Shown: in pieces, positions 28,666-38,476 of the stretch
Layout: each line of letters opens with the position of its first letter
How positions within the stretch are numbered: position 1 is the stretch's first letter
Notes under the pieces: model-generated
Told to the model about the DNA's origin: nothing
What the model saw: the letters and a program-made list of their open reading frames with translations, nothing else
Database searches by the model: none
Assembly (NCBI GenBank): GCA_017464815.1
Contig: JAFTYI010000017.1
Span: forward strand, 1-38,606
Reading direction: 5' to 3'
Length of the DNA: 38,606 bases
From: Bacteroidaceae bacterium
Lineage (GTDB): Bacteria > Bacteroidota > Bacteroidia > Bacteroidales > Bacteroidaceae
Translations under genes and position numbers: made by a program

Positions 28666-29154
28666 TTAAAGCGGATTCCCCCCCGTTCCCGAGCCACCAT
28701 CATTGGTGCCAGTGTCGTCGCCGGAGGTGTCATCGCCACCCTCGGCCTCCTCCTCGGCGCCCAACTTGAGCCACTCCACCGTGTGGGGGATGCAGCTGCG
28801 CGTGGCCACCGTGCCATCGGAGTTGCGGGAGTTCTCGGGGACGAAGCGCACGCGGATGGCGCTAATCTGCGCTGCACTCACCTTCTCCTCCGTCTCCACA
28901 CCCTGCTTGGCCGAGTTGATGACGTAGCGGAAGTTGCCCAGCCCCTCCAGTTTCACACTCTTGCCCTGGGCCATAAACTCGCCCATGATGGCTCCAATCT
29001 CGCTGAGCACGGCGCGGCAGTCCGAGAGGGTCACCGTCGAGCGGTCGCTCAATGCCTGTGCCAGTTCCTTGGTGCTGATGGCCTTGCCCACCACCACCGA
29101 CTGAGGATGCCACAAGCCACTCTTCTTCTGAAATCTTGCTTTGTAAAATGCCAT
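28666..29154 (-). CDS. HU-family DNA-binding protein with acidic-glycine tail
   Basis: The 162 residues begin MAFYKARFQKKSGLWHPQSV, the start of the Bacteroidales HU-HIG proteins, followed by an HU/IHF-like core (about 25-105, with LEGLGNFRYVI). A low-complexity end follows from about 132 (AEEEAEGGDDTSGDDTG, then Gly/Ser). The family is thought to bind DNA as a nucleoid or phage-related factor; the tail is acidic and unlike the basic tails of histone-like proteins. A promoter of consensus type lies 127 bases upstream, leaving a long leader. The smalltalk gene follows. Confidence 0.88.
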   Translation of the reverse strand: MAFYKARFQKKSGLWHPQSVVVGKAISTKELAQALSDRSTVTLSDCRAVLSEIGAIMGEFMAQGKSVKLEGLGNFRYVINSAKQGVETEEKVSAAQISAIRVRFVPENSRNSDGTVATRSCIPHTVEWLKLGAEEEAEGGDDTSGDDTGTNDGGSGTGGNPL

Positions 29155-29313: not shown

Positions 29314-29450
29314 TATTCTCCCCACTTTCTTTTCCGCCCGTTCGCAACGCACTGATTTACAACACTCTATTTTCATCAAAAATAACATCGAAGCAAAGTG
29401 TTTCGAAATGTTAATAATACCTTTTCCCCAAGCCTCCCCCTAGTTCAGGT

Positions 29451-29654
29451 GGATACAGTTAGTTACAGTTACAGTTTTTTTTTTGCCCTGTGTATGTGTA
29501 TGGTTTGATTGCCTCTCCAAGGTATTATATATATTATATATAATTTTTTATATAATATATATAATAAAATATATTTACACGTTTTCTACACATATCCGCC
29601 AACAAGCGTGTATGAGGGGAAAAATAAAACTGTAACTGTAACCAACTGTAACCT
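29451..29654. repeat. Nested palindrome with GTTACA repeats and an AT cruciform
   Basis: Outer arms of about 40 bases (29451-29490 and 29615-29654) are inverted copies built on GTTACAGTTACAGTT. Between them lies a perfect 18-bp inverted repeat of A and T only (29523-29540 with 29549-29566, loop TAATTTTT). No gene is present. The iteron-like outer units and easily melted centre resemble a replication or recombination site; the function is unknown. Confidence 0.85.
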
Positions 29655-29699
29655 TTGCCGTATCCTTGTCAGCTCAACAACTAATTTTCCGACAAACCC

Positions 29700-29730
29700 T
29701 TTGCACGGACAATTATTTTCCGTATATTTG
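29700..29730 (+). promoter_or_regulatory. Consensus promoter of the restriction-modification operon
   Basis: TTTG (29700-29703), 19 bases, TATATTTG (29723-29730). It points at hsdM, with about 330 bases of leader in between. Confidence 0.8.
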
Positions 29731-29753
29731 CACAAACATAAACATCCTGTCGC

Positions 29754-29804
29754 ATGAACAACTTTAACTGTGTAGTAAATAATATAAACAAATCGGGGGG
29801 GTAA
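29754..29804 (+). CDS. Possible 16-residue leader ORF ending at a G7 tract
   Basis: ATG 29754 opens a frame of 16 codons closed by TAA 29802 directly after seven G (29795-29801). It is the first ATG of the transcript predicted from the promoter at 29700-29730. One additional G would join it in frame to the lipoprotein-like frame that ends at hsdM, giving about 105 residues. It may be a leader peptide, a slippage-controlled start or chance. Confidence 0.3.
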   Translation: MNNFNCVVNNINKSGG

Positions 29805-29838
29805 AAAGTAGCCTTTCTGATTACGGGCGCGCGCGTAT

Positions 29839-29881
29839 AAAGCGGCTGACTGAGCACGGTTGTGCTTGGTTGGCCGCTTTT
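29839..29881 (+). terminator. Terminator-like hairpin inside the hsd leader
   Basis: A 19-bp continuous stem (29839-29857 with 29862-29880, four G-U pairs) with loop GGTT, A-rich before and TTTT at the end. It lies between the promoter and hsdM, so it could act as attenuator or end a short leader RNA of about 145 bases. Confidence 0.7.
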
Positions 29882-30070
29882 GTTGTATCTGTATGCTTCA
29901 TTGGTTGTAGCGAAGAGCCGGAAAATATTGACGAAGCGAGAGTTAACGACACTCGCACCACAGAAAATCCCGACTCTGCGGATACCTTTACGGGAGAAAT
30001 TTCGGATTGGGAGGAGGGCAATGCCAGTGTGCTCAATCAAGTGTCCAACTCTGAAGCCTCGAAGCCATGA
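29870..30070 (+). CDS. Possible small lipoprotein overlapping hsdM
   Basis: The frame ends at TGA 30068-30070, overlapping the hsdM ATG at 30067 (ATGA), the same coupling seen between hsdM and hsdS. Read from TTG 29870 it gives 66 residues with a hydrophobic start ending in CFIGC, then an acidic, Thr/Glu/Asp-rich chain (SEEPENIDEARV...). The frame is open back to 29783 but contains no ATG. A true start may lie at a non-AUG codon or come from the leader ORF through a change in the G7 tract. It could also be a decayed lipoprotein gene. The overlap with hsdM is the best argument that it is or was translated. Confidence 0.4.
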   Translation: MAAFVVSVCFIGCSEEPENIDEARVNDTRTTENPDSADTFTGEISDWEEGNASVLNQVSNSEASKP

Positions 30071-31638
30071 GCACCGACAAGCAGCGCGCCGAGTTGCATA
30101 AAACCATTTGGAAAATTGCAGACCAATTGCGCGGGTCGGTGGATGGTTGGGAGTTCAAGAGCTATGTGCTGGGTACCCTCTTCTATAGGTACATTTCTGA
30201 AAGCATCACCGAATATGTCAACCGTCTGCAACACGAGGCGGGAGAGACTGATTTTGACTACACGCTGATGAGCGACGAAGATGCCGAATACGGCCGCGAG
30301 CAGATTGTGGACGAAAAAGGCTACTTCATCCCACCCAGCCACCTGTTTGCCAATGTGGCGAGAAATGCCAGTGCCGACGAAAACCTGAACGAAACTCTCA
30401 GCCGCGTTTTCCGTGGTATCGAAGCCTCGGCACAGGGTCATCCGTCGGAAGACGACCTGCGCGGTCTCTTTGGCGACTTCCTCGTAGATAGCACCTCGCT
30501 GGGGCGCACCGTGAGCAAGCGCAACGAACTGCTTGCCAAGGTGCTGGAGTCGGTGGCAGGCATGGATTTGGGCGGCTCGTTCACCGACCACAAGATTGAT
30601 GCCTTTGGCGATGCCTACGAGTTTCTGATGCAGATGTATGCCGCCCATGCGGGCAAGAGTGGTGGCGAATATTTCACCCCTCCTGCCGTCAGCGAGCTAT
30701 TGGCTAGGCTCTGCTTGATACGCAATCCCCTCATTCGCCGTGTGTACGACCCTGCTTGCGGCAGTGGCTCGTTGTTGCTGAAGTTTGCAAAAATCATTGG
30801 TCACGACCACTCCGATTTGGAGTACTACGGGCAAGAAATCAACCCCAGCACCTACAACCTTTGCCGCATCAACATGTTTCTTCATGGCATAGGTTTCGAC
30901 AAGTTCGACATCCAGTTGGGCGACACCTTGACCGACCCCCGACACATGGATTTGGTGCACAGTGTGAATGGTTTCGATGCCATAGTGAGCAACCCTCCTT
31001 ATAGCATCAAGTGGGAGGGCGAGGACAACCCCATCCTGATAAACAACGAACGCTATGCCCCTGCCGGCATCCTGGCACCCAAGTCGAAGGCTGATTTGGC
31101 TTTTGCCATGCATATGTATCACCACCTGAGCGAAAGCGGTGTGGCATCTATCGTAGAGTTTCCGGGTGTGCTCTATCGAGGCGGTGCCGAGCAGAAAATC
31201 CGTCAATACCTCGTTGAGCACAATGCCATCGATGCCGTCATCCAGTTGCCTGCCAACCTCTTCTTTGGGGTGGGCATTGCCACTTGCGTCCTTGTATTGC
31301 GCAAAGGCACACGCACGGACAACAAAGTGCTGTTTGTGGATGCTTCTTCCTGCTTTGAAAAGGAAGGAAACAAGAACTATCTGCGCCCCTATCATCAAGA
31401 CCGCATAGCTGAAGCGATAGAAAAGCGTGAGGATGAGCAATACTTCTGCCGTTTGGTAAAGAAAGAAGATATTTTGGCCAACGATTGCAACCTCAGTGTA
31501 TCCAGCTATGTAGAGCAGGAGGATACGCGCGAGGTGATTGACATTGAGCAAATCAACACCAACCTCGCCTCTTTGATAGCAGAAGGCCATGCGCTGAATG
31601 CCCGTATTGAGGAGATAATTAAAGAATTGGAGGGATGA
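30067..31638 (+). CDS. hsdM: Type I restriction-modification system, methyltransferase subunit
   Basis: HsdM methylates adenine in both halves of a bipartite target as part of an M2S or R2M2S complex. The 523 residues have the helical HsdM N-domain (about 7-150) and a N6-adenine methylase core with the SAM-binding motif DPACGSG (228-234) and the catalytic motif NPPY (309-312). FTPPAVSELLARL marks the start of the catalytic domain. The reading frame is intact. The stop overlaps the hsdS start by 4 bases. It is the first gene of hsdM-hsdS-hsdR. Confidence 0.96.
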   Translation: MSTDKQRAELHKTIWKIADQLRGSVDGWEFKSYVLGTLFYRYISESITEYVNRLQHEAGETDFDYTLMSDEDAEYGREQIVDEKGYFIPPSHLFANVARNASADENLNETLSRVFRGIEASAQGHPSEDDLRGLFGDFLVDSTSLGRTVSKRNELLAKVLESVAGMDLGGSFTDHKIDAFGDAYEFLMQMYAAHAGKSGGEYFTPPAVSELLARLCLIRNPLIRRVYDPACGSGSLLLKFAKIIGHDHSDLEYYGQEINPSTYNLCRINMFLHGIGFDKFDIQLGDTLTDPRHMDLVHSVNGFDAIVSNPPYSIKWEGEDNPILINNERYAPAGILAPKSKADLAFAMHMYHHLSESGVASIVEFPGVLYRGGAEQKIRQYLVEHNAIDAVIQLPANLFFGVGIATCVLVLRKGTRTDNKVLFVDASSCFEKEGNKNYLRPYHQDRIAEAIEKREDEQYFCRLVKKEDILANDCNLSVSSYVEQEDTREVIDIEQINTNLASLIAEGHALNARIEEIIKELEG

Positions 31639-32756
31639 GTATGGTGGAGTGGAAGAAGTTAGGGGAGGTTTGTGTTGTTCATACAGGTGGGCAATTAAAT
31701 CGTAATGATATGATTGAAGAAGGGCTGTATCCTGTCATCAATGGTGGAAAGACACCTTCTGGATATACAAATTCTTTTAATGAACGCGCAAATAGTATAA
31801 CAATTTCACAAGGCGGTGAATCTGCCGGCTACGTAAATTGGATAGATACGGACTTTTGGGCTGGTGCACATTGTTATGTTGTAGAGCACGATGATAATAT
31901 TGTGAAAAGATATTTATATCACACACTCAAAAATATAGAAGTCGTTTTACAATCAGTAAAACAAGGCGCAGGAATCCCTGGATTAAATAGGAAAACATTG
32001 TATAAACAAGTCATCCCTATCCCCACCAAGTCAGAGCAATCCCGCATCGTCGGCATCCTCGATACCTTCACCGCCAGCATCGCCAACTTGAAAGCACAAA
32101 TCAAGGAGCGACGCAAGCAATACGAATATTATCGTGACCAACTCCTCGACCTCGAAGGAAAAGAGGGGGTGGAGATGAAGACGCTGGGGGAAGTTGGTGA
32201 AATTAGAGGACGAATCGGTTTCAGAGGATACACACGTGAAGACCAAGTAGGAGAGGGAGAAGGTGTGTTGTCATTAAGTCCAGGAAATATTGTTAATGGG
32301 ATAATGGACTATAATAACTCAACTTATATTACTTGGCAAAAGTATGAAGAATCACCCGAAATAAAGATTTATGATGGCGATATTATTTTCTGTAAAACAG
32401 GTTCCACGGTAGGGAAAGTTTCTATTGTAAGTCATTTACCGTATAAGGCAACAATAAACCCGCAGTTAGTAGTATTAAAGGAGATAAAGATAAACTCAAA
32501 TTTTTTGTTATATACGCTTGGCACATATAGAATTCAATCTTTAGTTAAAGCATTAGCTGGGGTTGGTTCAGTACCCAATATATCGCAAGCAAAATTAAAT
32601 GAACTCATCATTCCATTGCCCTCCAAGCAAGAACAACTCCGCATCGTCTCCATCCTCGACCAATTCGAGGCCAGCATCGCCAACCTCGAAGCCCAGTTGA
32701 AGGAGCGCGAAAAGCAATATGAATATTATAGGAATCAATTATTAACGTTTGAATAA
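31635..32756 (+). CDS. hsdS: Type I restriction-modification system, specificity subunit
   Basis: HsdS recognises the two halves of the DNA target. The 373 residues contain two target-recognition domains (about 1-120 and 180-320), each followed by a similar conserved helical region: EQSRIVGILDTFTASIANL (about 134-152) and EQLRIVSILDQFEASIANLE (about 330-349), with KQYEYYR in both. The recognition domains are visibly AT-rich while the conserved regions are GC-rich, a mosaic that indicates exchange of recognition domains. The last 30 bases turn AT-rich again. No second hsdS or recombinase is in the window. The protein is a little shorter than E. coli HsdS but complete in plan. Confidence 0.93.
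   Translation: MSMVEWKKLGEVCVVHTGGQLNRNDMIEEGLYPVINGGKTPSGYTNSFNERANSITISQGGESAGYVNWIDTDFWAGAHCYVVEHDDNIVKRYLYHTLKNIEVVLQSVKQGAGIPGLNRKTLYKQVIPIPTKSEQSRIVGILDTFTASIANLKAQIKERRKQYEYYRDQLLDLEGKEGVEMKTLGEVGEIRGRIGFRGYTREDQVGEGEGVLSLSPGNIVNGIMDYNNSTYITWQKYEESPEIKIYDGDIIFCKTGSTVGKVSIVSHLPYKATINPQLVVLKEIKINSNFLLYTLGTYRIQSLVKALAGVGSVPNISQAKLNELIIPLPSKQEQLRIVSILDQFEASIANLEAQLKEREKQYEYYRNQLLTFE
32010..32751 (+). repeat. Direct repeat pair of hsdS conserved regions
   Basis: Copies at about 32010-32150 and 32608-32751 encode the two helical regions of HsdS; the shared AGCATCGCCAAC and CAATACGAATATTAT-type blocks give homology suited to recombination. Confidence 0.7.
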
Positions 32757-32765
32757 GCCATTCTT

Positions 32766-35700
32766 ATGACCGAAAACTTCAACATCGTAATCCAGCAAAG
32801 CAACCTCACGGTGATGACCCGCTATGAGGAGTGCCCCAAGGATGCACAGCGCTACCAAGGCGAGGCATCGTTGGAGGATGGCCTGATACGCCAACTGGTG
32901 GCACAGGGGTATGAGCGCCTGCACATCGACACCGAAGAGGGGCTTATCAGCAACCTGCGCACACAACTGGAGAGGCTGAACGGTATCCAACTGAGCGATG
33001 CTGAATGGAAACGGCTCTTCACACTGGAGATTGCCAACGAAAACCTGAACATCGAGGACAAAACCGAGCGCATACAGCGCGACCCGATACTGAACATCGT
33101 GCTGGACAATGGCGAGACAAAGAACATCCGCCTGATAGACAAGCAGGACATCTACAACAACACCGTGCAGGTGATGAACCAATATACCCCCACGGGAGGC
33201 ACAGCCAAAAACCGCTACGACGTGACCATCCTTGTGAACGGCCTGCCACTGGTGCACATCGAACTGAAGCGCCGGGGAGTGGATATCAAGGAGGCATTCA
33301 ACCAGATAAACCGCTACGGACGCGAGACGTTTTGGGCTGACAACGGGCTGTTCGACTATGTGCAGCTGTTTGTCATCTCGAACGGCACCTTTACCAAATA
33401 CTACAGCAACACCACCCGCTATGCCCATGTGCAGGAGGCTGCCAAGCAGAAGACAAGGGTGAAGACACAAAGCAACTCGTTTGAGTTCACCAGCTATTGG
33501 GCCGATGCCGAAAACCGCATCATCAACGATTTGGAGGATTTTGCGGCTACTTTCTTGGCCAAGGAAGCACTGCTGAACATCCTGACCAAATACTGCGTAT
33601 TTACCGTTGACAAGAACCTGATGGTGATGCGCCCTTATCAGATAGCAGCTACCGAGCGCATTCTGCTGAAGATACAGTATGCCCACAACCGCCGCTTGCA
33701 GGGTACACGCCGTGCAGGAGGCTACATCTGGCACACCACGGGAAGCGGCAAGACACTGACCTCCTTTAAGACAGCGCAACTGGCATCGAAGTTGAAGAAA
33801 GACGACAAATCGTACCTGCTCGACAAGGTGCTGTTTGTGGTTGACCGCAAAGACCTCGACTATCAGACGATGAAGGAGTACGACAACTTCGAGAAGGATG
33901 CCGCCAACAGCAATGCCAACGCGGCCATACTGCTGCGTCAGTTGAATGACCCCACGAGCCGCATCATCATCACCACCATACAGAAGTTGAGCAACCTGCT
34001 GAAATCGGGCAAGGAAATCAAGTGCCTGGAGAAGGAGGTGGTGCTGATATTCGACGAGTGTCACCGCTCGCAATTCGGCGACATGCACCAGCTCATCACC
34101 AAGAAGTTCAAGAAATACTATATGTTCGGCTTCACAGGCACACCCATCCTTGGCAAGAATGCCAGCACCACCAGCAAGGACAAGAAACTGGTCACCACGG
34201 CGCAGCTATTTGGCGGCGAACGCGACGATGAGGGTAAACGCACAAAACCCCTGCACAAATACACCATCATCAACGCCATCAACGACAAGAATGTGCTGAA
34301 ATTCAAGATTGACTATGTGCGCACCATGCGCAAGCGCGAGGGCATGGAGGATGAGCAAGTGTGGGGCATTGACTCGGAAGAGTTGCTGAAAAACGACCAG
34401 TACATCACCAACAACGCGAAGTACATCCTTGACAACTTTGCACGCAAGACGAAACGTAGCGAGAACTTCTACATAGGGGTGACAAAGAATGTGGTGGAGA
34501 TGGCCAAGGCTCGCAAGAAGAAGGTAGAAGAGATTAGGGGTAAGGAAGAGGTGCAGGGCTTCAACTCCATCTTTGCAGTAGATAGCACGGAGAAAGCCCG
34601 TCTCTACTACGACAAGTTTGCCCAGTTGCAAGCCGACAAGCCCAAGGACGAACAGTTGCGCATTGCCACCATCTTCACTTTTGCCCCCAACGAGGCCGAA
34701 GGTGACAGCCTTGGCGCACTGGAAGATGAGAACCCCGAAGGCACCGACCGCTTGGATGAAGTGAGCAAGGAGTTCTTGGCTCGTGCCATCGACGAATACG
34801 ACAAGGCGTTTGGCACAACCTACGGGGTGGATGCCCAGCGCTTTGCCAACTACTACAAGGACATTTCCCTGCGCATGAAGAACAAGGAGATTGACATCCT
34901 GATTGTAGTGGGCATGTTCTTGACGGGCTTTGATGCCAAGACATTGAACACCCTGTGGGTCGATAAGAACCTGAAGATGCACGGCCTGTTGCAGGCTTTC
35001 AGCCGCACCAACCGCATACTGAATGCTGTAAAGGATTGTGGCAATGTGGTGTGCTTCCGCAACCTTGAACAGCAGGTGAAGGATTGCTTCGCCCTCTTTG
35101 GCGATAAGGATGCCAGCGGCCTGATAACCATGCGCCCGTTTGAAGACTATTTCAATGGGTACGACGATGACAAGGGCGTGCATCAGCGGGGCTATCGGGA
35201 GATAGAGTTACTGTTGGCTGAGAAATTCGACTTGCACACCATCGGGGAGATGCGGACGCTGGAAGAAAAGAAAGAGTTTGTCCGCCTGTTCAGTGCCCTG
35301 CTGAAATTGCGTAACCTGCTTGGCGCATTCGATGAGTTTGGCGAAGCCCAGCTGACACTGAGCGACTATCAGATACAGGATTACACCTCGTGGTACATCG
35401 ACCTGCGCGACGAATTCAAGAAAGAAGCCAGTGCAGGCAAGGAGAAGGTGAACGACGATGTGGTGTTCGAGATAGAGCTGGTCAAACAGGTGCAGATAGG
35501 CATTGAGTACATCCTGGCACTGGTGGCCGAATACCACCAAGGCAATTGTCAGGATAAGGAAGTGGTGGTGAAGATTCAGAAGGCCATCACCTCGAGCCCC
35601 GACCTGCGTAGCAAGCGTGAATTGATAGAGCAGTTCATCGAACGCATGACACCCAGCGATGCCGACGATGTATATGGCCGTTGGGATGACTATGTGGACG

Positions 35701-35948
35701 AACAGCGAGCAGCCGACCTACAACGCATCATCGACGAAGAGAAATTGAAGCAGGCAGAAACCGAAGCGTTTATGACACATGCCTTCGAAGAGGGCTACGT
35801 CAGCAGCATAGGCACTGCCATCACCAAGATATTGCCACCCATGCCCCTGTTTGGCGGAGGTGGCAAGAGAGCTGAGAAGAAGAAGACTGTATTTGAAAAA
35901 CTGCAGGTGTTCTTCAACAAGTATTATGATTTGATAATCAACAGATAA
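32766..35948 (+). CDS. hsdR: Type I restriction-modification system, endonuclease subunit
   Basis: HsdR cuts DNA far from the recognition site after ATP-driven translocation. The 1060 residues have an N-terminal PD-(D/E)xK nuclease domain (Asp152, Glu166, Lys168 in IELKRRG), then a superfamily 2 motor with Walker A TTGSGKT (324-330), DEAD-like DECH (430-433) and FTGTPI, motif VI-like QAFSRTNR, and a helical C-terminal part that contacts HsdM. All motifs are intact, so the system can be expected to restrict DNA. It starts nine bases after hsdS. Large open frames on the opposite strand are by-products of its codon use. Confidence 0.96.
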   Translation: MTENFNIVIQQSNLTVMTRYEECPKDAQRYQGEASLEDGLIRQLVAQGYERLHIDTEEGLISNLRTQLERLNGIQLSDAEWKRLFTLEIANENLNIEDKTERIQRDPILNIVLDNGETKNIRLIDKQDIYNNTVQVMNQYTPTGGTAKNRYDVTILVNGLPLVHIELKRRGVDIKEAFNQINRYGRETFWADNGLFDYVQLFVISNGTFTKYYSNTTRYAHVQEAAKQKTRVKTQSNSFEFTSYWADAENRIINDLEDFAATFLAKEALLNILTKYCVFTVDKNLMVMRPYQIAATERILLKIQYAHNRRLQGTRRAGGYIWHTTGSGKTLTSFKTAQLASKLKKDDKSYLLDKVLFVVDRKDLDYQTMKEYDNFEKDAANSNANAAILLRQLNDPTSRIIITTIQKLSNLLKSGKEIKCLEKEVVLIFDECHRSQFGDMHQLITKKFKKYYMFGFTGTPILGKNASTTSKDKKLVTTAQLFGGERDDEGKRTKPLHKYTIINAINDKNVLKFKIDYVRTMRKREGMEDEQVWGIDSEELLKNDQYITNNAKYILDNFARKTKRSENFYIGVTKNVVEMAKARKKKVEEIRGKEEVQGFNSIFAVDSTEKARLYYDKFAQLQADKPKDEQLRIATIFTFAPNEAEGDSLGALEDENPEGTDRLDEVSKEFLARAIDEYDKAFGTTYGVDAQRFANYYKDISLRMKNKEIDILIVVGMFLTGFDAKTLNTLWVDKNLKMHGLLQAFSRTNRILNAVKDCGNVVCFRNLEQQVKDCFALFGDKDASGLITMRPFEDYFNGYDDDKGVHQRGYREIELLLAEKFDLHTIGEMRTLEEKKEFVRLFSALLKLRNLLGAFDEFGEAQLTLSDYQIQDYTSWYIDLRDEFKKEASAGKEKVNDDVVFEIELVKQVQIGIEYILALVAEYHQGNCQDKEVVVKIQKAITSSPDLRSKRELIEQFIERMTPSDADDVYGRWDDYVDEQRAADLQRIIDEEKLKQAETEAFMTHAFEEGYVSSIGTAITKILPPMPLFGGGGKRAEKKKTVFEKLQVFFNKYYDLIINR

Positions 35949-36208: not shown

Positions 36209-37525
36209 ATGGAAGGTTTGATAAAAAAGAAAACAGTATATCTGACAACCTTGGAGAATCTTTTCCAAGAGTTGACGCAACCTCCACGCTCAATTTCATC
36301 GGGCGGGCGTAAACTTGCATTTCTTAGTTTGTTGTATGATGTCCATCGAGTGCATCAATTTTTCTTGCAGATAGAAAACAATCTTTCTAAATCAGTTGAC
36401 ATTCATAACATTTTGTTGTATGATGCAGATGTAGATTATAATCAATGGCATATAAACTTAAACCGAAAATTTGATGTAAGTGCTTTTTATATGCCAGATG
36501 AGGAAGAGAAAGATGCGGATGAGTCATCTGTAAAAGAAACGCTGTCACATTTAATTTCCACTTTAACAAAGTCTGAACTCAAAGGTTACAATATTCAATT
36601 GGCAGACTACAAATTATGGTTAGAAAGTCTATTGACAAGCAATGCCAATATTGAATACTTAACTTTAGCGCTCAATGAATCTATCTCTTCACTTAGGGAA
36701 AGTCTTTTGCATATACATAGCAGAATCAGTAAGCATAAGATGAACTTGGCCGAAGGTGAAAGACTTTATGAATATGAAAAAAAATTTTTTATTAGTGAAG
36801 CAGAAAGTAAGGTTGTAGAAAAGTTTGAAGAGTGGAAAGATTCTTTTGATGAAAATGAAGATGCACTCAAACGAAACTTGACTGGCAAATATCGTACTGA
36901 AATGCTTAACTTGTTTATGTCAGGCTTTTTATCACCAAGGATAGGCGCACAAGTTGAAACTGATACAACGTGTTTTGATGCAGAATTTGAAGAACTGCGT
37001 TTTTTTAATATCCCTCAAGGTATGGATACAAAATTGCACTACTCAGCTTTGCGCGAACTATTTGATTATAAAGGTCATATTGTTGTACCCAAGACAGGGC
37101 ATATAGGGAAATACTTCTTCAAGCATCGTAAGGAAATAAGTGTCCCCCAGCGTATTGCCTTATTTGAGTTTATCAAGATGATAGAGTTGATAGAGGGAGA
37201 GAGAAAGAATATAGATGATGTATCAAAGAAGAAAATATCCAAACTTCAAACAGATAATAAAAACCTCTTCAATAATATTATTCAGTACGAACAACCTGAG
37301 ATATTGCTTGAAAAACTTCATCAATTAATAGATGGTCGTAAAGGTGCAGACGTTGGTTGTGTATTATTAAAATGCCTTATAGATGGATACATTACTCGTC
37401 GACCGACACAAAAAGAATTCAAATCAGAGTTTACTTTGAATGGTAGGTGGACAAGTATTCATAATTATATGGATGATAACAGCCAAAATGCATTGGATAG
37501 AGCCAATAAAATCATAATTTTCTAA
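36209..37525 (+). CDS. Unrecognised 438-residue protein next to the restriction genes
   Basis: I do not recognise a family. The chain is mainly helical, acidic and without signal peptide or membrane segment. An N-terminal part (about 1-110) is followed by an acidic stretch EEEKDADESS, a Leu/Lys/Glu-rich, possibly coiled-coil centre (about 110-230), and a C-terminal part (about 280-438) with SALRELFDYKG, HIGKYFFKHRKEIS and GCVLLKCLIDGYITRRPTQK. The C-terminal part gives a loose impression of proteins carried by Bacteroides mobile elements. The DNA is AT-rich compared with hsdM and hsdR, suggesting separate origin. ATG 36209 follows a palindrome; the gene ends before its own terminator. A defence accessory role is inference from position. 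Confidence 0.75.
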   Translation: MEGLIKKKTVYLTTLENLFQELTQPPRSISSGGRKLAFLSLLYDVHRVHQFFLQIENNLSKSVDIHNILLYDADVDYNQWHINLNRKFDVSAFYMPDEEEKDADESSVKETLSHLISTLTKSELKGYNIQLADYKLWLESLLTSNANIEYLTLALNESISSLRESLLHIHSRISKHKMNLAEGERLYEYEKKFFISEAESKVVEKFEEWKDSFDENEDALKRNLTGKYRTEMLNLFMSGFLSPRIGAQVETDTTCFDAEFEELRFFNIPQGMDTKLHYSALRELFDYKGHIVVPKTGHIGKYFFKHRKEISVPQRIALFEFIKMIELIEGERKNIDDVSKKKISKLQTDNKNLFNNIIQYEQPEILLEKLHQLIDGRKGADVGCVLLKCLIDGYITRRPTQKEFKSEFTLNGRWTSIHNYMDDNSQNALDRANKIIIF

Positions 37526-38080: not shown

Positions 38081-38476
38081 ATGAAAAAGAACAATCAATT
38101 TCTTTTCAACAATGTACAGATGGACACAGTGGCCATCTTCAGTGACAACAACGTGACAGTGGTGCCTTGCCCTTGGGATGCAGCAAAGGGGGAGGAAGTG
38201 ACAGGCGGCAAGCGCGTGAGCTTCAAGGGGCGCACGGTACTGGAAGAGAGCGGACGGATGCGGACAACGCCCTACAACATAGGGTCGCAAGGGCCTCGAT
38301 ACGAAACCCTGTTTGCAACGGAGCACTGCACCATCCAACGCACAAACGGGGGCGGGCTGGTCGAACGGTGGGCTTTCCGACGGGAGTTGCCCATGCACAA
38401 GGTGTGCGAAATCAGAGAGCGTGAACGGGCATCGATTGATGCATTTTTTGTAACACTTAAAGAGGATTTGAAATGA
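38081..38476 (+). CDS. 131-residue protein of unknown function
   Basis: Begins MKKNNQFLFNNVQMDTVAIF and contains Arg/Gly-rich segments (GGKRVSFKGRTVLEESGRMR). No domain is recognised. Its stop codon overlaps the ATG of the next gene by 4 bases (ATGA at 38473-38476), so the two are translated together. It lies 93 bases after the previous small gene. Confidence 0.7.
   Translation: MKKNNQFLFNNVQMDTVAIFSDNNVTVVPCPWDAAKGEEVTGGKRVSFKGRTVLEESGRMRTTPYNIGSQGPRYETLFATEHCTIQRTNGGGLVERWAFRRELPMHKVCEIRERERASIDAFFVTLKEDLK

Follow-up and report, generated by a model that had tools for sequence, protein, structure and literature searches.

Results

A leader with a G tract ahead of a type I restriction operon

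The window, by which we mean the whole 38,606-nucleotide stretch of Bacteroidaceae DNA that was analyzed, contains hsdM, hsdS, and hsdR with their domains, forming a type I restriction-modification operon (Pfam, PADLOC). The operon is preceded by a leader on the plus strand at 29700-30070, termed c1, and related leaders, termed c2 to c5, are described below. The features are as follows.

29700..30070 and beyond, all on the + strand:
29700..29730, +, promoter P1: TTTGCA at 29700-29705 (-33) and TATATTTG at 29723-29730 (-7), aligned with c2, c3, and c4
29754..29804, +, leader ORF of 16 codons, MNNFNCVVNNINKSGG then TAA: ATG at 29754, TAA at 29802-29804, with corresponding ORFs in c2, c3, and c4 by alignment
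29795..29801, +, G7 tract with the stop directly after it: G9 in c2, G8 in c3, G7 in c4, G8 in c5
29801..30070, +, start-less lipobox (FIGC) frame: from translation and coding-type substitutions relative to c2, joined to the leader ORF at G8
29839..29880, +, 19-bp hairpin resembling an intrinsic terminator, within the lipobox frame: from folding and shuffles, with compensatory changes in relatives
29881..29888, +, U-rich terminator tail TGTTGTAT, from sequence
30067..31638, +, hsdM: Pfam N6_Mtase (1.6e-106) and HsdM_N
31635..32756, +, hsdS: Pfam Methylase_S (7.6e-46)
32766..35948, +, hsdR of the EcoR124 type: Pfam EcoR124_C (1.1e-58) and HSDR_N

P1 fits the Bacteroidetes -33/-7 form, TTTG / TAnnTTTG. 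The promoter, the 16-codon ORF ending at G7, the 19-bp hairpin, the lipobox frame, and its ATGA overlap with hsdM had all been listed in a preliminary description of this DNA, and each was confirmed base for base. The hairpin folds at -30.5 kcal/mol (z -7.06), with none of 200 shuffles equally stable, and beyond its last G-C pair the DNA reads TTTTGTTGT, a moderately T-rich tail that is weaker than a canonical U run. The RNA from 29736 to 30066, taken whole, is not unusual in structure (z -1.20; 11 of 100 shuffles as good), the excess being confined to the local hairpin, and when 29400-30100 was searched against Rfam nothing reached the gathering score, the sub-threshold hits being to miRNAs and lying on an AT-rich inverted repeat upstream. 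A stem between the G tract and CCUUUC, seen in the c1 and consensus folds, was not relied on, since c4 has lost several of the pairs.

From the tract to 30070 (VKSSLSDYGRARIKRLTEHGCAWLAAFVVSVCFIGCSEEP...), the lipobox frame reads VKSS...FIGC...SKP*, and by eye it contains no ATG, GTG, or TTG from which a normal signal peptide would start. The frame ends in a TGA that forms ATGA with the hsdM ATG (30067). The preliminary description had proposed that one extra G would fuse the leader ORF to this frame to give about 105 residues, and computation from the stop position gives exactly 105 for G8.

Homologous leaders and the genes behind them

A DNA search of 61 genomes recovered a second copy in the genome of c1 itself (c2, L007; G9), which is 76% identical to c1 over 220 bases from promoter to lipobox. 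A genus search of 15 genomes gave c3 (L002; G8), ahead of hsdM in another species, and a covariance model of c1-c3 matched c4 (L059; G7) in a third genome, a relic whose locus, as read, has no restriction gene. A four-copy model run on 399 family genomes added c5 (L105; G8; E 5e-4), ahead of hsdM in another genus, where the fused ORF is 96 residues long and stops 46 nt 5' of an hsdM-hsdS fusion gene. The final five-copy model has strong matches in 4 of the 399 family genomes, which are exactly c1-c5, and the strong matches of the c1-c3 model within the genus set fall in 3 of 15 genomes; this type of leader is rare. Searches of plasmids and phages gave no match, none of seven viral stretches matched model R1 under E 0.01, and among 24 stretches from a genome-contig pattern scan only L078, which bears the contig name of c3, did so (E 4e-24).

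An invariant tract and a lack of homologues of the fused frame had been named as grounds for rejecting the reading first put forward, and both points came out in its favor. The homologues carry G7, G8, and G9, each length being a single assembly consensus from one genome per species, and the fused frame has homologues, of which c3 and c5 are uninterrupted as deposited.

The restriction genes behind these leaders differ. The cargo of c2 is a different type I system in the order R-M-S, with an EcoEI-type R followed by M (Pfam) and an S assigned by reading, and in c5 hsdM and hsdS form one 726-aa ORF (L105 9013-11849), followed by a 217-aa ORF without a PADLOC match and then hsdR. The ATGA overlap is found in c1 and c3 and is replaced by a gap in c2 (19 nt) and c5 (46 nt); because it is absent from these two, ATGA coupling is not essential to the design. 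On the 3' side of the restriction genes in c1, c2, c3, and c5 lie a 438-497-aa protein and a 131-153-aa protein, the latter homologous among c1, c2, and c3 and similar by eye at c5, and in c3 and c5 a large protein follows further on, with DUF3987 in c5. The 131-aa protein is present in 3 of the 15 genus-set genomes and, recurring at c2 and c3, it marks a hotspot of exchanged type I systems. In these settings the same leader therefore stands ahead of exchanged restriction systems.

Several other elements were observed around these loci. The window proteins at 36209-37525 (438 aa) and 38081-38476 (131 aa) are uncharacterized, with no Pfam or PADLOC match and with positional counterparts in L020, L021, and L105. 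HU-HIG proteins flank c1 (window 28666-29154) and c2 (L020 9848-10348), oriented away from the restriction operon, and both share the C-terminal end GGSGTGGNPL. An inverted repeat lies 5' of c1, c2, c3, and c7 (described below), with arms 125-137 nt apart that are built from short repeated units: window 29451-29489 / 29615-29653 for c1, L007 1877-1909 / 2042-2074 for c2, L002 2192-2211 / 2349-2368 for c3, and L122 454-487 / 614-647 for c7. The geometry is alike across loci and the arm sequence is locus-specific, with an AT-rich palindrome between the arms in c1, c2, and c7 (window 29523-29577). No inverted repeat was found in c4 within the stretch searched.

One tract length per leader opens the frame through the hairpin

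For each copy, the stop of the leader ORF was computed with the tract one base shorter, as deposited, and one base longer, and its position was expressed relative to the tract end. In that order the stops fall at 7/0/266 in c1 (G7), 298/0/14 in c2 (G9), 0/290/16 in c3 (G8), 179/7/0 in c4 (G7), and 5/238/0 in c5 (G8), and the hairpins of c1-c5 span from 36-39 to 76-78 past the tract end. Exactly one tract-length class thus passes the hairpin in all five copies, the ORF ending short of the hairpin in the other two classes. The chance of such one-class passage, estimated on Markov-shuffled downstream DNA, is 0.25-0.34 per copy. The copies c2-c5 were recovered through homology and not through this frame logic, and c1-c4 are close homologues, which means that five of five does not amount to five independent cases. 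Compared with c1, c2 has 42 bases rather than 41 before the tract and 37 rather than 38 from tract to stem, so that the gain of one base is offset by the loss of another and the frame relation is kept. By eye, c3 (GTG) and c5 (ATG) also have in-frame starts within the hairpin, from which a shorter lipoprotein could be translated.

That such a tract is in itself rare was considered and rejected, as tracts of at least seven Gs are fairly common in the genome of c1 among the matches listed. Among 34 distinct G>=7 tracts in that genome, which are those in the loci read rather than every tract of the genome, promoter, ATG, one-frame passage, and terminator come together in two, c1 and c2, and in the C-orientation control of the same genome the full signature occurs in 0 of 34. 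One further tract of this genome, L020:10394, passes the frame test without a promoter, and we did not accept it. A sample of 74 tracts, more biased than the 34 in that many of its loci were fetched for their hairpins, contains 19 with a downstream hairpin of -15 kcal/mol or below, 12 with one-frame logic, and 9 with an upstream TAnnTTTG as well, compared with 3, 1, and 0 in the C orientation; 7 of the 19 tracts with a terminator-like hairpin lack one-frame logic. A version of the frame test with a fixed hairpin position was passed by 12 of 74 other tracts.

Conservation of the hairpin and of the lipobox frame

The terminator hairpins of c1-c5 range from -22.4 to -30.5 kcal/mol, as found by a program that demands a T-rich tail. 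In the c1-c4 alignment of the hairpin, both sides have changed with pairing kept in 5 of 15 pairs, two pairs are each broken in one copy, and one pair is cut off or lost in c4; with c5 added, compensatory changes affect 8 of the 24 pairs predicted over the whole leader. Over 30 codons of the lipobox frame, c1 and c2 differ at 9, 4, and 13 sites in codon positions 1, 2, and 3, giving 8 synonymous and 12 non-synonymous codons, and each of the other frames over this region has stops in at least one copy. This combination of covariation and coding pattern implies that RNA stem and lipobox protein both appear to matter, which fits translation in an ON state.

Similar layouts ahead of other genes

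Weak hits of the five-copy model were read at 28 loci, of which 14 have no G run of at least 6 nearby. Among the other 14, only two combine tract, promoter, ATG, hairpin, and one-frame logic: c6 (G217, L114; E 0.05; G9), with fucosidase-like cargo and an ORF open through the hairpin, and c7 (G351, L122; E 0.005, hairpin part only; G9), with fimbrillin-like lipoprotein cargo and a stop before the hairpin. Both show one-frame logic too, although they were picked by eye for tract and terminator with the frames read in the same step and so are not unfiltered cases; c7 fails the fixed-position test because its hairpin is further away and passes with its own hairpin position. As for the candidates set aside, L131 (G6) passes the frame test and has an ATG that precedes the tract by 8 nt, yet lacks a promoter, L141 has a hairpin and no ATG, and the remaining 10 loci with a G run of at least 6 have no hairpin by the same test.

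A pattern of G7-TAA followed by GCNNTTTTT gave 17 matches versus 4 reversed in the 399 family genomes, and 8 matches, including c2, versus 1 reversed in 274 order genomes. The layout is present in c8 (G286), with BspA-like cargo and no TAnnTTTG upstream, in c9 (G320), with fimbrillin-like cargo, and in c10 (G054, another family), where the cargo is truncated. These three were filtered on frame logic and provide no evidence for it, and the cargo names for c6-c9 come from reading the translations rather than from a family search. In c10 (L181, minus strand, about 1375-1625), an ON-frame leader is followed by a truncated, secreted-looking ORF running into a convergent gene, and this cargo is perhaps rearranged. 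We did not accept as switches the family pattern matches L143-L145, L147-L151, L154, L156, and L157, or the order match L184, which passed the frame test and lacks a promoter. The copies c6-c10 share the layout of c1 and may or may not be kin to it.

Discussion

The anatomy of the window leader, together with the conserved hairpin and frame logic and with relatives in both the fused and the unfused form, makes it probable that c1 is a phase-variable, ribosome-gated transcription attenuator in which slippage of the tract sets hsdMSR transcription. For such a switch, leader RNA would be made from P1, and with G7 the ribosome would halt at the TAA that follows the tract, still 34 nt short of the hairpin. 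With the hairpin then able to form, RNA polymerase would terminate and hsdMSR expression would be low (OFF). Slippage to G8 would place the leader ORF in frame across the hairpin, and the ribosome would disrupt the terminator (ON); the lipoprotein would be made in this state, and in c1 ribosomes would be delivered to hsdM via the ATGA overlap. Under the model, c1 is OFF as assembled, because G8, not G7, fuses the frames; as deposited, c2, c4, and c7 would likewise be OFF and c3, c5, and c6 ON. The switch reading of the preliminary description is thus supported by the homologues and by the conserved hairpin and one-frame logic; slippage of the tract within one strain, termination at the hairpin, and an effect on hsdMSR and restriction output are inferred.

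The closest known system is pil1 of Streptococcus gallolyticus, in which a premature terminator is controlled by the passage of ribosomes, itself set by a frameshifting repeat in a leader-peptide gene (Danne et al. 2014, PMC3894217), a mechanism backed by terminator and start-codon mutants. As in pil1 and pil3, the repeat of c1 lies in a leader-peptide gene, and a change of frame shifts the stop to a site close to, within, or beyond a hairpin terminator; the OFF stop lies 39 or 49 bp before the terminator in pil1/pil3 (the paper gives both) versus 34 nt in c1 (PMC3894217). The pil1/pil3 repeat, in contrast, is a GCAGA pentanucleotide, the cargo a pilus, and the host a streptococcus, and the available portion of that paper describes no counterpart to the lipoprotein fusion of c1 (PMC3894217). 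At the level of sequence, c1 has what characterizes the pil1 kind of switch: a repeat-bearing short ORF between promoter and operon, a premature terminator hairpin, and a repeat number gating passage. The preliminary description had regarded the layout as unfamiliar. Three things are new in it, namely a G homopolymer as the repeat, restriction genes as the cargo, and a host in Bacteroidales; for the mechanism itself we found one published precedent, in S. gallolyticus (PMC3894217).

Other known systems share parts of the design, as far as the accessible portions of the papers go. The Bifidobacterium breve pilus switch also has an intragenic G tract, frameshifting, and downstream transcription that is reduced after a short-ORF stop, whereas termination there is dispersed, arising by polarity, with no specific terminator (Penno et al. 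2022, PMC9187656). Other phase-variable type I systems, with duplicated or inverting hsdS or with repeats, likewise switch stochastically, but in those the hsd genes themselves vary, whereas the c1 operon would be gated by an upstream leader (PMC7394358, PMC6265453). Attenuators of the trp type, which are named in PMC3894217, likewise combine a leader peptide, a terminator, and a ribosome that decides between outcomes. Unlike these, c1 would be controlled by DNA tract length rather than amino-acid supply, and no antiterminator hairpin was identified.

Four other explanations were weighed. One is programmed slippage of RNA polymerase or of the ribosome on the G tract, giving a fixed ratio of fused to short product with DNA length unchanged. 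Stem-loop-mediated transcriptional slippage has reportedly been published (Penno et al. 2015), and neither c1 nor c2 is fused in its deposited form. A fixed ratio, however, requires neither tract lengths of 7, 8, and 9 nor fusion at the DNA level in 2 of 5 leaders, and the hairpin lies about 37 nt beyond the tract rather than adjoining it, and we regard this explanation as unlikely.

Also improbable, in our estimation, is that the G tract acts as DNA, either as a promoter element or as a site bound by protein, with its length tuning a second promoter and the leader ORF and hairpin being incidental. Sites resembling TTAACAAAT-G7-10-TAAAA do occur 5' of other genes in the genome of c1 and in other genera, and among 43 tracts followed by TAA or TGA, the 33 that are not of the leader type include 8 with TAnnTTTG after the tract, 6 of them at exactly 19 nt. 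In the 10 leader-type copies, however, TAnnTTTG never occurs 8-48 nt after the tract and lies upstream in 9, compared with upstream occurrence in 3 of the 33 others, several of which were fetched by models or patterns favoring the motif. By this placement the leader type is not simply the poly-G promoter type, and the promoter explanation leaves one-frame logic, the coding pattern, and the conserved terminator unaccounted for. The motif shared with the poly-G promoter class is nonetheless one of the main reasons to be cautious about the switch, and the preliminary description had not anticipated it. Sites of that class (L110, L104, L107, L085, L134, L141, and L023) have a TTAACAAAT-like sequence, G7-10, TAAAWT, and TAnnTTTG mostly 19 nt past the tract; some precede genes that read as surface proteins, and tract length might tune the promoter in this class. 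The mfa1 promoter of P. gingivalis is said to have a poly-G tract, in a report that our literature search did not find.

It is very unlikely that the tract is an assembly error concealing an intact, ordinary lipoprotein gene whose signal-peptide region contains a stem: homopolymers can be miscounted in metagenome assemblies, and c3 and c5 are intact as deposited, but G7 is short for a miscount, c1 and c2 would both need to be wrong, and the strong terminator within every copy would be left unexplained. Least probable is a decayed lipoprotein gene, its frame broken in the genome of c1 and its hairpin due to chance, as c2 is also unfused at another length and c1 and c2 keep coding-type differences, hairpins, and open hsd frames, even though c4 is a relic whose locus, as read, lacks restriction genes.

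In Bacteroidales, accounts of phase variation center on DNA inversion, and the papers that we found agree with this. For a homopolymer-gated terminator in this order, a literature search covering sources other than subscription papers and preprints found no paper among the results listed. If the switch proposed for c1 is real, a slippage-driven, terminator-based mechanism would be a second route besides inversion, and one that annotation would easily overlook, given so small a variable ORF and a tract outside any annotated gene. A wider proposal, which we hold tentatively and at close to even chances, is that a portable G-tract-gated terminator in Bacteroidales gives stochastic on/off control to restriction and surface genes (fimbrillin-like, BspA-like, and fucosidase-like) by one mechanism, with the ON leader of the hsd version also making a lipoprotein. 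ON and OFF would be predictable from one number, the tract length, which can be counted in metagenome reads. Restriction genes, and perhaps also genes for certain surface proteins, would be turned on or off as a G is gained or lost. If restriction is gated in this way, some cells of a population would at any time be without their DNA barrier, which bears on how phages survive and how genes are transferred in the gut.
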